Source of the DNA: Candidatus Abyssobacteria bacterium SURF_5 | Lineage (GTDB): Bacteria; Abyssobacteria; SURF-5 | NCBI GenBank assembly: GCA_003598085.1 | Contig: QZKU01000044.1 | Span: 1-36,293, forward strand | Reading direction: 5' to 3' | DNA length: 36,293 nucleotides | In this document: piece by piece, positions 23,862-30,337 of the stretch | Numbering within the stretch: the first letter of the stretch is position 1 | Layout: every line of letters begins with the position of its first letter | Program-made: the position numbers and the translations under genes | Notes under the pieces: generated by a model | The model's database searches: none | Seen by the model: the letters and a program-made list of their open reading frames with translations, nothing else | What the model was told of the DNA's origin: nothing

Positions 23862-24938
23862 TTACGTTCTCGCCCTTATTGTCAATGCGGCGCCGATACC
23901 GAAAAAGAGGATGTTTGCCAGCCAGGCCGATAGCACAGCCGGAAGAGAGCCTCCCTTGCCGAGCGTCATTCCTATCTGGAACGTCCCGTAGTACAGGAGA
24001 GCTGCGATCAAGCTGAGGGCGAAGCCGGTTGCCAGGCCGCCCCTGCGGCACTCGAGCGCAAAAGGCAGCGCCAGGAAAATGACGATGATATTCGCGGCCG
24101 GTACGGCAAATTGCGAGTAATACTGCACTTTCAGACGCTGCGCGTCGTAGCCGCTTCTCTCGAGGTTCTTGATCTGATGATGAAGCCCTCTGGCGCCGAG
24201 AAGCACCTCCTCTGACGCATGCATCTGCAATGTCTTGGGCGATTCCTTGAACGGCGCCTTCATCTGGACGAAGGCGGTGGTCTCCAGAAGGGCCCCTTCG
24301 GCGTCGAATTTTTTGACGGTGCCATTCTCCAGATACCATCGTTCGGATGCTGTGTCCCATATCGCTTCTTCGGCATCGATCCGTTCGGTTAAGAAGCCGT
24401 CTTTCATATGATGAATATGCACGCCGCTCAGGACGCCTTGTTCCGTATCGACGAGGTCAAAATAATAAAACAGGTTCCTCCGGCCAAATCCGGCGACATC
24501 GGAGATTTGCGGACCCGACTTGTGCAGGAACTTGTTTTCATCCAGTTCGTTGGCCGTCAGCATTCCACGAGGGACGAGAAATTCCTGCATGATGAATACA
24601 CACAGGTACAGGATCACGCCGATTGCCAGTATCGGAACGGCCACGCTGTAGACACTGATCCCGCCGGATAACAGCGCCGCCATCTCATTGTTCTTTACCA
24701 GTCCGCCAAATACAAACAGGATGGATACAAGAAAACTGATCCAGGAAATCTCGATCAGCACCCGCGGCGTCAGGCAAAGATAATACAGCGATAGAAGCGA
24801 AAGCGGGGCCTGGTGCTTTGTCAGGCGGTCAATGTTCTCCATGAAGTCGACGAAGATGAAGAACGCCAGCATGATCAAAAGAAAACTGAAATAATACAGG
24901 AGCACTCGGCGGCAGATATACCTGGTGAGGATGCTCAT
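23862..24938 (-). CDS. lptG: LPS export permease LptG (YjgP/YjgQ family)
   Basis: Inner-membrane permease of the LptB2FG exporter, which extracts LPS and loads it onto the periplasmic bridge. 358 residues from ATG 24938. Three helices near the N-terminus (for example LLYYFSFLLIMLAFFIFVDF and VLIEISWISFLVSILFVFG) precede a jellyroll periplasmic domain (about 130-255) and three C-terminal helices, the YjgP/YjgQ layout. The motif NNEMAALLSGGIS is the cytoplasmic coupling segment for the ATPase. A longer reading to 25043 would run into lptF and is rejected: lptF stops at 24940-24942, one base away. Which of the pair is F or G is by order and similarity. Confidence 0.87.
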   Translation of the reverse strand: MSILTRYICRRVLLYYFSFLLIMLAFFIFVDFMENIDRLTKHQAPLSLLSLYYLCLTPRVLIEISWISFLVSILFVFGGLVKNNEMAALLSGGISVYSVAVPILAIGVILYLCVFIMQEFLVPRGMLTANELDENKFLHKSGPQISDVAGFGRRNLFYYFDLVDTEQGVLSGVHIHHMKDGFLTERIDAEEAIWDTASERWYLENGTVKKFDAEGALLETTAFVQMKAPFKESPKTLQMHASEEVLLGARGLHHQIKNLERSGYDAQRLKVQYYSQFAVPAANIIVIFLALPFALECRRGGLATGFALSLIAALLYYGTFQIGMTLGKGGSLPAVLSAWLANILFFGIGAALTIRART

Positions 24939-24939
24939 C

Positions 24940-26058
24940 TTATTTTCTCTCCGCTCGCGCCATGCAGATGATGCCTGCAATTCCCAGAAACAGATTCGGA
25001 ATCCACATGCCAAGCAGCGGGTTGACCACTCCTTTCTTCGCAAGGGCCTCCCCCAACATCAAAAGAGAATAATAGGCCAGCAGCAGCCCTGCGCACACGG
25101 CCAACCCGTACATGCGCCGCGCCTTGTGCGGAATAATTCCCAGCGGCGCGCTGACCAGCACGAACACCAGCGGCATGAACGCCATCGCCGTCCGCTCACC
25201 GACATGACGCAAAAGATTCCGCCGTTCCTGTCTCTCAATCGCTGGATCGCCCGCCTGCCGGATTAACTGGGAAAGCGTCATCTCCTTCGGAGAAAGATCT
25301 TCCAGCGCCTGATAGCGCCGAATGTTGCGGTTAAGCGCCTCTACTTCCACCGGAATCGTGAACCTGCCAAATGTCGTGGTTGAATATGTATCCGGCTCCG
25401 CCATGTCGAACTCGTGTATCGCGCCTTCTTCAAGTTCAAGGAAAACCTTGTCCTTTTTTTCACTCAGAAATACTCTCCCGGCTTTTGCCACTATGTTTCG
25501 CCGGGGCCCGTTGTCCGGGTTGATTACGATATCAACGTCCTTCAGCCGCATCCGTTTATGATCAATATCCCCCACAAATATCCGCATGTTGTTCACTTCT
25601 TGCGTCCACGCCTGTTCGTTTAACACCAGCGTCGGTTTCTCCATGATCTTCTCAATGATAAAGACCTTCATGCCGCGTTTAGCTCGCGGAGATACCTCGG
25701 CCCCAAGAATGAGCAACAGCAGCGTCGCAAACATGCCGACAGCGACGGCCGGCACAAAAACCTTCATGATTGGGATTCCGGCCGATTTCATGGCGATAAT
25801 CTCGCAGTCGTTCGATAATTGAGCGAATGCGATAAGCGTAGCGAATAACAGAGCGATGGGGATAGTGTAGATCATTAAGGACGGCAATGCGTACGAAATC
25901 AGGATCGCAACGTCGAGCAGGCCCAGGCCGTTGCTCATAAAGCGGTCTCCGATCTCCTTCAGCAGGTTGCCGACAACAACGAGAAAGGTGATAACCAGAA
26001 ACGTAAGGAAGAAGGGAACCATCACTTCCCGCGCGACATGTTTATGAATAATGTTCAT
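24940..26058 (-). CDS. lptF: LPS export permease LptF (YjgP/YjgQ family)
   Basis: Partner permease of LptG. 372 residues: N-terminal helices (FFLTFLVITFLVVVGNLL, ALPSLMIYTIPIALLFATLI), the coupling segment NDCEIIAMKSAGIPIMKVF (about 83-101), a periplasmic jellyroll (about 135-265), and C-terminal helices (AFMPLVFVLVSAPLGIIPHK, LAVCAGLLLAYYSLLMLGEA). It is first in a two-gene unit with lptG, touching within one base. LptB, LptC and LptA are not in the window. A plausible promoter lies at 26105-26134. Confidence 0.9.
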   Translation of the reverse strand: MNIIHKHVAREVMVPFFLTFLVITFLVVVGNLLKEIGDRFMSNGLGLLDVAILISYALPSLMIYTIPIALLFATLIAFAQLSNDCEIIAMKSAGIPIMKVFVPAVAVGMFATLLLLILGAEVSPRAKRGMKVFIIEKIMEKPTLVLNEQAWTQEVNNMRIFVGDIDHKRMRLKDVDIVINPDNGPRRNIVAKAGRVFLSEKKDKVFLELEEGAIHEFDMAEPDTYSTTTFGRFTIPVEVEALNRNIRRYQALEDLSPKEMTLSQLIRQAGDPAIERQERRNLLRHVGERTAMAFMPLVFVLVSAPLGIIPHKARRMYGLAVCAGLLLAYYSLLMLGEALAKKGVVNPLLGMWIPNLFLGIAGIICMARAERK

Positions 26059-26164: not shown

Positions 26165-27340
26165 CTATGACACGCGGAGGAACGCGCATTTCAGGTAGGA
26201 TGTCTCCGGCATCGCGAGTGGAATCGGATGATCGCGCGACTGCCCGCGCCACTCGATCAGTGTGCAGCTCCTGCGCTTCTTCCGAGCCGCTCTGGAAAGA
26301 ATTAGCCAAAAGAGTTCTCCCGAGACATGAAATGAACACGAACAGCTTATCAGGAAGCCATCGTGAGATAAAATGGTCATTGCGAGCCGGTTCAGCCGCT
26401 CGTACGCGGCTTCCCCCTGCGGCAGATGCCGCTTGCTTTTCACCAGCGCTGGCGGGTCAAGGACGATGCAGTCGAATCGTTCATCCGATCGAGTCAGATC
26501 TTCCAGCCGCTCAAACACATCGACCTCCTCGAATCGGCAAACCGGCTCGAGTGAATTCAACTCGGCATGCCGGCGGGCCGCCTCAATCGCTCGTGAGGAT
26601 GAATCCAGTCCTAACACATCGCGGGCGCCCGCAAAACCGGCATACAGCCCCCACGCGCCCATATAGGAGAAGCAATCAAGCACTCGTGCTCCGGCAAAAA
26701 GCCGTGCCGCTGCCACTCGATTGTCGCGCTGGTCAAGGTATAATCCCGTCTTTTGTCCCTCCAGCACGTCCACATCGAAGAGCAGGCCGTCCTGCCGTAT
26801 CCTTACGGGATGTTCACATTCTCCGCTCAAAACCCGGCTCTCCTCCGGAAAACCTTCCAACTGAGCCATCGGAGTGTCAGTTCGAAGGATAACTGCAGCG
26901 GCGGCTATTCCGGCTGCGGGAAGCGCCCCCAGGATCTCCGCCAGGCGCACATACATGCCGAGCGTCGAGACCTGAATGACATAAACGTCTTCGTACCTGT
27001 CGATCACCAGGCCGGGCAGTCCATCGGCCTCTCCATATGCAAGGCGGTAACTCTTTTCGTTCGGATACAAGGTTTGGCGAAGCTGATCGGCGCGCCTGAT
27101 GCGTTCCGCAAAGAAATCCTTGTCGATCTCGCGCCGCTCGCGCGCCAAAAGACGCACGCTTATCAGGGACTGCGGGTTGATATATCCCCGGCCGATGAAG
27201 TTGCCGCCGGAGGAAAAAACGTCCACAAGCTCTCCCGGCACAAACTCCTGCCTGACATTGGAGATCTCGTTGCTGTAGATCCAAAGATGGCCCGCTCGCG
27301 CGCGCCTGTCCTCATTTTTCTTTAATTGAACTGTTTTCAT
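26165..27340 (-). CDS. Class I SAM-dependent rRNA methyltransferase, RlmI family
   Basis: RlmI/RlmK-type 5-methylcytosine 23S rRNA methyltransferase candidate. 391 residues: an N-terminal PUA RNA-binding domain (about 1-75, starting VQLKKNEDRRARAGHLWIYS), a middle segment with YGEADGLPGLVIDRYED, then EGQKTGLYLDQRDNR, the SAM-binding VLDCFSYMGAWGLYAGFAGA (about 222-241) and the catalytic DPPALVKSK (about 299-307), plus SCSC late in the domain where the catalytic Cys lies. The domain order is that of RlmI. The exact target cytosine is unknown. It is probably transcribed on its own: 177 bases with hairpins precede it and lptF has its own promoter. Confidence 0.85.
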   Translation of the reverse strand: MKTVQLKKNEDRRARAGHLWIYSNEISNVRQEFVPGELVDVFSSGGNFIGRGYINPQSLISVRLLARERREIDKDFFAERIRRADQLRQTLYPNEKSYRLAYGEADGLPGLVIDRYEDVYVIQVSTLGMYVRLAEILGALPAAGIAAAAVILRTDTPMAQLEGFPEESRVLSGECEHPVRIRQDGLLFDVDVLEGQKTGLYLDQRDNRVAAARLFAGARVLDCFSYMGAWGLYAGFAGARDVLGLDSSSRAIEAARRHAELNSLEPVCRFEEVDVFERLEDLTRSDERFDCIVLDPPALVKSKRHLPQGEAAYERLNRLAMTILSHDGFLISCSCSFHVSGELFWLILSRAARKKRRSCTLIEWRGQSRDHPIPLAMPETSYLKCAFLRVS

Positions 27341-27472: not shown

Positions 27473-27522
27473 GGGCGCGGTATGCCGTGCCCGCTGACAG
27501 GCAACCTGTTTCCGCAGTCAGC
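27473..27522 (-). terminator. Paired hairpins after the selenoprotein gene
   Basis: Two inverted repeats sit at the 3' end of the upstream gene. GCTGAC (27493-27498) pairs with GTCAGC (27517-27522), with inner ACAGG/CCTGT. GGGCGCGG (27473-27480) pairs with CCGTGCCC (27485-27492) with one mismatch and a four-base loop. No T-run follows on the minus strand, so intrinsic termination is only possible; RNA 3'-end protection is an alternative. Confidence 0.3.
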
Positions 27523-28492
27523 GTGATAATTCAGCCGCTCTTGCGGCTGTTTCGGCGCCCAATGCCTTGCATTGCTCGATGTCGTGTTGAAAAAAATTGC
27601 CGACTTTCGCGGAGTCGTCGAAGTCGATCTTGACGATCCTTCGGCATTGATGGTCGCCGAACCTGTTCTGAAACCAGGAGAATAGTTCGGAGCAGCGCTC
27701 GAGCGCATCGTTTGCCGGCGAAAGATCAGGCCTCGCGTAGGCGGACGAACCGAGAGCAAGAGTGAACAAAACCCTCTTCACCGCGGAAAGGATTCCCGTC
27801 TCGCTGGTGTCGCCTCCCCGCGCCAGCCCAATAGCCATGCACCCGCCTATCAACGCGGCGCAGGTGGACCCGGTGTAGCCGACGCCGCCATTCAACGGGA
27901 CGAGGAGATTCGGCCCGAGCATCTGGTTTCGCATCGACTTCTCGCATGCCTGGCAGATGACGGAGTAGGCGCAATGAAAATCGGCATCGAAAAAGCCGCG
28001 ATTCAGCTCGGTAAATCTCTCTTCAGGAGGCCGATTCTCCTCTATGATATCCACTAAATCCTCAGCCGCTCGCGAGGCCGCTTTCACACAGGTGCGCGAC
28101 CCGACCAGCAGGTACCGCCGCACCTGCCCTGAATCGGTGAAATCGGTGCGGGCGATATCCCCGCACAGGATACCGCCGTTCTTTTTCGCAAACAGCCGGA
28201 CAAATCGGTTCACGTGCGTGCTCCCGCGCGCGGTGATGGCAGCCTGATCGTCCTCCGATTGCGCGCTCGCGAGCGCAAGCGTCAAGGCCCCTCCCGTTAC
28301 TATGCCGCATACCGCCGCCTGATGGCCGATCCCGCCGGCCAACCCGGCGGCCGCCCTGATTCGTTTGGTATCTCCCAGACCGAGAAGATCCTGCATGTTC
28401 TGCAGTGTTGCCTGCGCTCAATGCTGCATCTGCATCATCCGAGCGGATGCGCCTTTGGATGCCGCTTTTCTATCCAAATACCTCTTGCCCAT
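27518..28492 (-). CDS. C-GCAxxG-C-C family protein, probable selenoprotein (in-frame TGA = Sec)
   Basis: Putative redox protein with two C-GCAxxG-C-C repeats. The frame opens at ATG 28492 (AGAAGG just upstream) and gives about 324 residues if TGA at 28418-28420 is read through as residue 25. Repeat 1 reads QH-Sec-AQATLQNMQ, then LAGGIG and AVCGIVTGG; repeat 2 reads FHCAYSVICQ, then NGGVGYTGSTCAALIGG. The TGA aligns exactly with the Cys of repeat 2 and with the family's conserved first Cys. A hairpin with a G-starting loop follows 17 bases later (see SECIS). A shorter reading from ATG 28396 loses this active-site segment. Some family members are known to be selenoproteins. The electron partner is unknown; a nonsense mutation is the alternative. 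Confidence 0.8.
28391..28405 (-). promoter_or_regulatory. Candidate bacterial SECIS hairpin
   Basis: On the minus strand CTGCA-GAACA-TGCAG forms a 5-bp stem with a 5-base loop beginning with G. The loop starts 17 bases after the in-frame TGA (28418-28420). Stem, loop size, a G among the first two loop bases and distance all fall within the usual bacterial SECIS rules. Confidence 0.65.
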
Positions 28493-28547
28493 GATGCCTT
28501 CTTTCTTGCCGATGATCCCGAACTTCAAACAGTTTCCATTTGCTTAG

Positions 28548-28577
28548 TATCGTACGCGCCGCACATGAAAGTCAAGA
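28548..28577 (-). promoter_or_regulatory. Promoter for the selenoprotein gene
   Basis: On the minus strand TTGACT (28572-28577), 18-base spacer, GATACT (28548-28553). Transcription would start near 28541, about 50 bases before ATG 28492. This supports a start upstream of the in-frame TGA rather than the internal ATG at 28396. Confidence 0.55.
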
Positions 28578-28741
28578 GAAGCGAGACGCCTGGTCGAGCG
28601 AATCGGAAAAAACCCGTATTCAGAAAGGTTGCCGATGGACCGATGGATGTGCGAAAAAGGCGAACTGAGCGGCTGGTTTTTCGCCCGCAAATATGATATT
28701 ATTATAAGAATTATTTGGGAAACAAAACAGGAGTGTGGAAC

Positions 28742-30337
28742 ATGAGCTTTGAGATCAATCGTTTTCTGGAAACCGCACAAAGGATCTTCGAACAGGCTCT
28801 TGCCGATGGCCGGCTGATAGCCAACCCGGACAAAGACCATCTGAAAGCGATGGTCGAAAAAGAAGAGGGCGTGTCAGTTTCCAGTTATGGGAGTTTCTCG
28901 GTCGACTCCGAACCGAATTCGCGTGCGGCGCAGTTCACCAGAAATAACGTGGACGACCGATTCGGGGACGAGGAGGAGAAGCTTCTTTTGCAGTGCGAGC
29001 AGCACCTGGCGCGCGAGCAGCTTGTCAGTCTTGACCTCCTCGTTGGCAACGGAGCATTGGGTACAACGGCACGGGCCATTGTCCCAAAACGATTTGCCCA
29101 CCTCATCTATGCGGGCGAAAATCAATTCGGCCGCGCGAACGGAAAAGTGGCCGATCCGACATATATCATCATTTTCTTTTTCGACGACAACTTCAGCTCG
29201 AATAAATCAAAACCGCTGCCCAAGAAGGACATCACCATCCGGGTCGCGTATCTGCCCAATGGCAGAATGGTGAAGATCATCCGCAACAGCAACTATTTTG
29301 GCGAATTGAAAAAGGGGATTTTTGCCGCTGAAGACTGGGTTGCAAAAGCGAACCGCGGTGGAATTTTCCTGCACGCCGGCTGCCGCGCGGATTATCTCCA
29401 GCAGGCGCACGGTGGCTACGAATGGGTCCGCTCGCTGCTGATTGCGCTTTCGGCCAATGGCAAAACCACCACCACCAGCCGCGTGCTGGCATGGAAAGAT
29501 CATGAGGAATCGTGGTTGATCCAGGACGATGGCGGCACCCTCATGCCCGACGGCTCGTTCTATGGCTTTGAGGCCGGCGGCATTTTCGTAAAAACGGACG
29601 GACTGAACCCGCGCGACCAGCGCGAAACCTATTACGGCGCACTCAAGCCGGCCACTTTCTTTGAGAATGTCTGGCTCGACGACAGCGGAAATTTCGATTT
29701 CTATAACTCCGAGAAAACGTCCAACGGCAGAGCGATTATCGTCCGCCGCGATTTCATGCATGCCGGCAATAAGATAGATGTTGACGGCATCGAGAACCTC
29801 GTGCTCATCACGAGAGGCCCCACCATACCCGCGATATGCCGCCTCAACGCCGAACAGGCGGCCGCCTTCATGGTGCTCGGGCAGGCAATGCAATCTTCCG
29901 CCGGAGATCCGACGCAGGCCGGCAAGATCATCAGCGAGTTTTTTTATGACCCCTTTATCGCCGGCGACAAAGCGGAACATGCCAATATCTTCTATGAAAT
30001 TATCAAGAACCTGAAAAATTTGAGATGCTTCCTGATCAATACCGGCGGCGTCGGCGAGGGCTTCCGCTATCACGATATCACGTTGAACGACACGATGGGA
30101 ATCCTGGACTCGCTGTGCAGGGGCGGCCTCGAGGACTGGGAAATGAACCCGAACATAGGCTTCGAAATACCAAAGGCGATCCGGCTCGTCGACCCGATCT
30201 TCGTTCACCCGGAGCGCCTTTTTAACGCCGCCGATTTCACGAAGCGGCAAGCAGAACTGAAGAAGGCAAGGATACAGGCTATAGAAGAGGTCGGCTCCGG
30301 GCTTCACCCGGCGATCCGAAAAGTATTCCTTCCGTAA
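28742..30337 (+). CDS. Divergent ATP-type phosphoenolpyruvate carboxykinase
   Basis: PEPCK (ATP) family protein, expected to interconvert oxaloacetate and PEP. 531 residues from ATG 28742, supported by AGGAG at 28729-28733. Ligands match the E. coli enzyme by position: ELKKG (Lys190/191), FLHAG (His211), LIQDDGG (Asp262/263) and SNGRAIIVRR (Arg). The P-loop is ALSANGKTT (Lys241) instead of the usual LSGTGKTT, and the kinase-1a segment FEAGGIFVKT replaces FEGGCYAKT. The core is therefore kept but the nucleotide loop is unusual, so a different phosphoryl donor or a non-gluconeogenic role is possible. It stands alone, with a strong terminator after it. I leave the symbol blank because of the divergence. 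Confidence 0.8.
   Translation: MSFEINRFLETAQRIFEQALADGRLIANPDKDHLKAMVEKEEGVSVSSYGSFSVDSEPNSRAAQFTRNNVDDRFGDEEEKLLLQCEQHLAREQLVSLDLLVGNGALGTTARAIVPKRFAHLIYAGENQFGRANGKVADPTYIIIFFFDDNFSSNKSKPLPKKDITIRVAYLPNGRMVKIIRNSNYFGELKKGIFAAEDWVAKANRGGIFLHAGCRADYLQQAHGGYEWVRSLLIALSANGKTTTTSRVLAWKDHEESWLIQDDGGTLMPDGSFYGFEAGGIFVKTDGLNPRDQRETYYGALKPATFFENVWLDDSGNFDFYNSEKTSNGRAIIVRRDFMHAGNKIDVDGIENLVLITRGPTIPAICRLNAEQAAAFMVLGQAMQSSAGDPTQAGKIISEFFYDPFIAGDKAEHANIFYEIIKNLKNLRCFLINTGGVGEGFRYHDITLNDTMGILDSLCRGGLEDWEMNPNIGFEIPKAIRLVDPIFVHPERLFNAADFTKRQAELKKARIQAIEEVGSGLHPAIRKVFLP

Follow-up and report, generated by a model that had tools for sequence, protein, structure and literature searches.

Analysis of a 36,293-nt stretch of DNA (here called the window) revealed a minus-strand gene for a 324-residue protein made of two C-GCAxxG-C-C (PF09719) domains, in which residue 25, encoded by an in-frame TGA, is very probably selenocysteine (Sec). 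Both repeats have all four conserved Cys columns of the family, and the Sec stands at the first of these in repeat 1. We consider it likely, as a joint claim, that the gene encodes a functional selenoprotein and that its role is of a redox type in the broad sense.

The in-frame TGA and the two PF09719 domains

The read-through frame opens with an ATG at 28492 and ends with a terminal TGA (27520-27518), and its single in-frame TGA is codon 25; the original prediction had the frame, the TGA, the stop and the 324-residue product right. The standard open reading frame call for this gene begins at 28396 and is 292 residues long. As anticipated, ordinary gene calling thus loses the first 32 residues together with the key residue 25, and it likely does the same in relatives. 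Of the two expression signals that had been claimed in front of the ATG, the Shine-Dalgarno-like AGAAGG is present; the sigma-70-like promoter offers weak support, because it agrees with the consensus at only 9 of 12 positions and is one of three such matches in the stretch (0.7 expected from shuffles). No signal peptide was apparent by eye in the 324-residue translation, which ends in AAELSR.

Table 1. Features of the selenoprotein gene and its surroundings (window positions)
Feature	Position	Strand	Basis
Two-domain PF09719 selenoprotein gene	27518..28492	-	Translation with TGA=U; PF09719 in two stretches; orthologues L019 and L020
In-frame TGA, probably read as Sec (residue 25, first invariant Cys of PF09719)	28418..28420	-	TGA also in G001 and G002; invariant column
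Repeat 1 (Sec domain): U25, C62, C110, C135	28055..28423	-	PF09719 match, residues 24-146; invariant columns
Repeat 2 (Cys domain): C174, C211, C283, C308	27530..27979	-	PF09719 match at G000:C44:27530-27979; conserved columns
Putative bSECIS hairpin with apical GGUC (28378-28381)	28370..28389	-	35-36 nt past the TGA; comparable in G001 and G002
Shine-Dalgarno-like AGAAGG	28497..28502	-	4 nt upstream of the ATG, read directly
Possible sigma-70-like promoter TTGACT-18-GATACT (weak)	28546..28575	-	Consensus scan only, 9/12 matches
Downstream neighbour: RlmI-like 23S rRNA methyltransferase gene	26165..27340	-	Same neighbour in L019 and L020

The Pfam family PF09719 (C_GCAxxG_C_C) matches the 324-residue protein in two stretches (E=3.1e-30; score 105.1 against a curated cut-off of 27), and the NCBIfam model TIGR01909 gives 56.6 bits, above its cut-off of 47.4. 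The TIGR01909 score rises to this value from 52.6 bits once the part before 28396 is added, and the read-through part therefore fits the family. The segment QHU-AQATLQ of repeat 1 aligns with FHCAYSV of repeat 2, exactly where the TGA had been placed. We then aligned 71 domain rows, with Sec shown as Cys: the residue-25 column is Cys in 22/22 first repeats, 22/22 second repeats and 27/27 single-domain proteins. The C62, C110 and C135 columns are likewise all Cys, except for gaps in one partial row.

Orthologues L019 and L020 come from two other genomes of the same family and different genera (G001 and G002). They are 53 to 54% identical, and each has exactly one TGA, at the position of codon 25, and zero other stops. 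Judged from the three sequences, purifying selection acts on the codons before the TGA, with pN/pS of 0.39 to 0.60 in codons 2 to 24 versus 0.37 to 0.45 downstream. Coding conservation starts at the proposed ATG, since ungapped nucleotide identity is 23 to 28% in the 75 bases before it and 51 to 60% in the first 72 bases after. The order of the two-domain gene and the RlmI-like methyltransferase gene on its 3' side is kept in 3/3 genomes.

Each of the three genomes also carries a second PF09719 gene (L029, L030 and L031), which has a single domain and ~150 residues, with a TGA at the homologous codon in the context F-N/S-U-A/T-Q. The position of the TGA is not a matter of chance, since the two other genera have it at that codon too and the three single-domain paralogues have one at the equivalent codon. 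The paralogue L029 is found at G000:C73:10679-11128, G000 being the genome of the two-domain gene; an MscS-type channel gene lies near the single-domain paralogue in G000 and G002.

Two other minus-strand loci call for comment on their annotation. The 98-residue open reading frame at 28544-28840 has no family match and overlaps the start of an opposite-strand PEPCK_ATP-like gene; it is probably not a gene. At 23862-26058, the adjacent LptF/LptG genes overlap by ~100 bases as called, and the second start is probably further in.

Selenocysteine machinery and candidate SECIS hairpins

Can this genome decode UGA as Sec? All four genes of the pathway, selA, selB, selC and selD, for which a search had been proposed, are present in G000, which is 98.5% complete in 145 contigs. 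On contig C41, selA (E=1.3e-176) lies directly upstream of selB (E=8.2e-114). There is one tRNA-Sec, with anticodon UCA, and selD (L064; G000:C42:20143-21069, minus strand) has an in-frame TGA of its own, in SGGUACK. In the mechanism that we propose, SelB and the Sec-tRNA(UCA) would read UGA codon 25, helped by a GGUC-tipped hairpin.

The GGUC loop and the stem position of this putative hairpin are common to the three two-domain orthologues, and one-sided changes keep the pairing; two outer pairs are lost in G002 and the innermost pair in the G000 gene. Published criteria for a bSECIS are an apical loop of 3 to 9 nt, a G in its first two positions, a distance of 16 to 37 nt from the UGA and an MFE of ≤ -7.5 kcal/mol (PMC13188914). 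Loop and distance lie within these limits in 3/3 orthologues, and the energies are -7.0 (G000 gene), -8.8 (G001) and -8.6 (G002) against the threshold of -7.5. When synonymous codons were randomized in each gene separately, the hairpin appeared in 13/60 randomizations for the G000 gene and in 33/60 for G002. Taken singly, the hairpins are thus mostly no rarer than in synonymous randomizations, and the SECIS argument therefore rests on comparison between genes.

Several such comparisons could be made. The hairpin of the single-domain paralogues has an apical GGC 22 nt past the TGA, and all three genes keep 8/8 pairs, T-A replacing C-G through a double change at one of them. In selD, a hairpin carries GGUC at or near its tip, about 33 nt past the TGA. 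Among the distant two-domain genes described below, eight related Sec genes have the stem GTCGAG-AGTT-CTCGAC fully paired in 8/8, with double changes at two pairs, and the three Cys genes nearest to them have 3 to 4 of the 6 stem pairs broken. In a second distant group, the two Sec genes are fully paired and two double changes apart, and all three Cys sisters are without the top pair. This covariation across genes supports a SECIS role for the candidate hairpins. Rfam SECIS families gave zero matches in the 36,293-nt window, a result that is uninformative because SECIS_1 matches nothing in control genomes either. Folding of the whole 96 nt of RNA around the TGA gave no signal (z=0.46).

Two other readings of the TGA have to be weighed against these data. 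In a decaying gene, the TGA would be a nonsense mutation and the product would be the 292-residue protein from ATG 28396, or none. The start of the standard open reading frame at 28396 fits this account, but that product would drop an otherwise invariant Cys. In addition, three genera share the TGA codon, three paralogues have a TGA at the equivalent codon, other lesions are absent, silent-site bias is seen upstream of the TGA, and the hairpins covary. Close relatives with a different residue at this site and frameshifts elsewhere had been named as the mark of decay; the two other genera share the TGA and show no frameshift. On the conserved TGA, the intact frame in relatives and the pN/pS upstream of the TGA, we reject decay as having a negligible chance of being correct. 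The TGA might instead encode another amino acid, or act as a signal for read-through or attenuation with no selenium involved; other organisms can recode UGA differently. The Cys in the other rows of the residue-25 column and the full Sec pathway in the genome argue against this, and we reject it as very unlikely because TGA also terminates this gene and selD has a TGA at its own Sec site.

Structure, proposed role and an iron-centre alternative

A first structure model, built on 3 rows, was too poor (pLDDT 60.6). A model on 21 rows reached a mean pLDDT of 87 and is all-helical; residue 25 starts a helix (25-37), and C62, C110, C174, C211 and C283 are at or beside helix starts. Such a position favours thiolates and selenolates. 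With the pLDDT-87 model, a fold search of the PDB gave zero matches at E≤0.001, and a PDB sequence search with the two-domain protein gave zero matches; neither a substrate nor a partner nor a closely related solved structure was found for this protein.

On the basis of family annotation and chemistry, we lean slightly toward a soluble thiol/selenol redox protein. Sec25, at its helix start, would be the selenolate that reacts, with C62, C110 or C135 as the resolving residue. Repeat 2, always all-Cys, would serve as a structural or electron-relay partner. A more specific proposal, that the two homologous domains work as a single redox unit in which the Sec of repeat 1 trades electrons with the all-Cys repeat 2 in a selenenylsulfide relay, or else that this Sec is a natural ligand of an iron centre, is improbable on our assessment. 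Either, if true, would add a new type of selenoprotein chemistry, and the fold concerned has no closely related solved structure.

The main rival to a thiol/selenol reductase is suggested by the kinship of PF09719 with split-Soret cytochrome c: an electron carrier whose Sec and Cys residues would hold an iron or iron-sulfur centre, selenium being one of the ligands. The kinship is seen through L072 (411-1253, minus strand), a protein that joins a PF09719 domain to CxxCH haem motifs. Its match to split-Soret cytochrome c (1h21) has E=2.6e-39 and aligns all four motif Cys, tying PF09719 to a solved structure with the four-Cys domain in common. We take the iron centre of this cytochrome to be of the [2Fe-2S] type. 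The title of the split-Soret cytochrome c paper, as cited in PMC5701242, names a novel iron centre. The four Cys are also invariant in the 71 domain rows, as would be the case for ligands. However, 1h21 has c-type haem motifs and Cys, not Sec, whereas the two-domain protein is without CxxCH and without a direct sequence match to 1h21, which is also absent among the best 50 fold matches of the two-domain model. Sec takes a single one of the four Cys positions, which would be expected of a nucleophile, and to our knowledge selenium is very rare as a natural Fe-S ligand. We regard the iron-centre reading as unlikely, though a serious contender.

Known relatives and distant two-domain genes

C-GCAxxG-C-C is listed as a selenoprotein family with a form 1 and a form 2, each with one Sec (PMC9312934, PMC13188914), which bears out the earlier statement that some of its members are selenoproteins. 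Since Sec is already catalogued in PF09719, the gene described here belongs to a known selenoprotein family, and both of its repeats match PF09719, the protein also scoring above the cut-off of TIGR01909 ('C-GCAxxG-C-C family (seleno)protein'). It is set apart from the catalogued PF09719/TIGR01909 forms, as these are described, by its ~320 residues, its two domain copies and its Sec in only the first. The HUGP/GUXX-star fusion selenoprotein (NF045501) aligns with residues 10-136 (E=8.6e-17), but at 61.4 bits against a cut-off of 325, and the protein here has no C-terminal GUXX-stop and one Sec, not two. Repeat 1 covers almost all of the model for the DVU_1555 family C-GCAxxG-C-C protein (NF045669; E=1.5e-19), but its 70 bits are below the cut-off of 103, and that model has 140 positions and one domain. 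Going by catalogue descriptions, we make a modest claim of novelty for a two-domain form that has its Sec in repeat 1 alone.

How widely does this asymmetry occur? Two-domain genes were gathered with PF09719 and two-domain profiles from 386 genomes and then from the phyla of three matches. We read 23 of them, the G000 gene included; one is without repeat 2 on its contig and another is without its end. The first Cys of repeat 1 is TGA in 16 of the 23 (one partial) and Cys in 7, and the first Cys of repeat 2 is TGA in 0 of the 22 genes that have a repeat 2. Thus, the arrangement that the original prediction had proposed for one gene, Sec in repeat 1 and Cys in repeat 2, recurs in several lineages. 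On a tree of 22 two-domain genes, three switches of the Sec/Cys label are required, and well supported branches force at least two of these. A good selA match was found in all but one of 24 genomes checked (three matches being partial or split); the exception, G288, is a Sec genome that is perhaps incomplete or contaminated. Since the Cys-form genomes also carry selA, the swap between Sec and Cys took place in Sec-decoding organisms.

The two-domain set offers natural Sec/Cys swaps at one site, with an equivalent in the second domain that is never Sec in the genes read. This built-in comparison makes it possible to test at which of the two equivalent sites selenium is needed. No shared partner was seen among the neighbours of the distant two-domain genes, and a contig scan for further relatives yielded one weak single-domain Cys protein.

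One potential explanation for the distribution of these genes is that the domain was duplicated separately here and in the other phyla, with Sec only in repeat 1 arising in parallel. We hold this to be nearly, though not quite, an even proposition, and it is compatible with the selenoprotein reading. In the domain tree, repeat 1 of the G000 gene stands apart from the other first repeats, and the shortest tree paths from both G000 repeats lead to their own single-domain paralogues. The deep forks of that tree are unresolved, however, and trees holding together all first repeats (p-AU 0.41) or both G000 repeats (p-AU 0.40) were not rejected.

Further PF09719 genes with a TGA were observed in these genomes. 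Genome G008 has tandem two-domain selenoprotein genes (L079, 407-1249 and 1345-2178), each with Sec in repeat 1. Single-domain genes with a TGA at the first Cys occur in three other families (L081, L083 and L088), and the N terminus of L088 is twin-arginine-like (NRRRFLKK).
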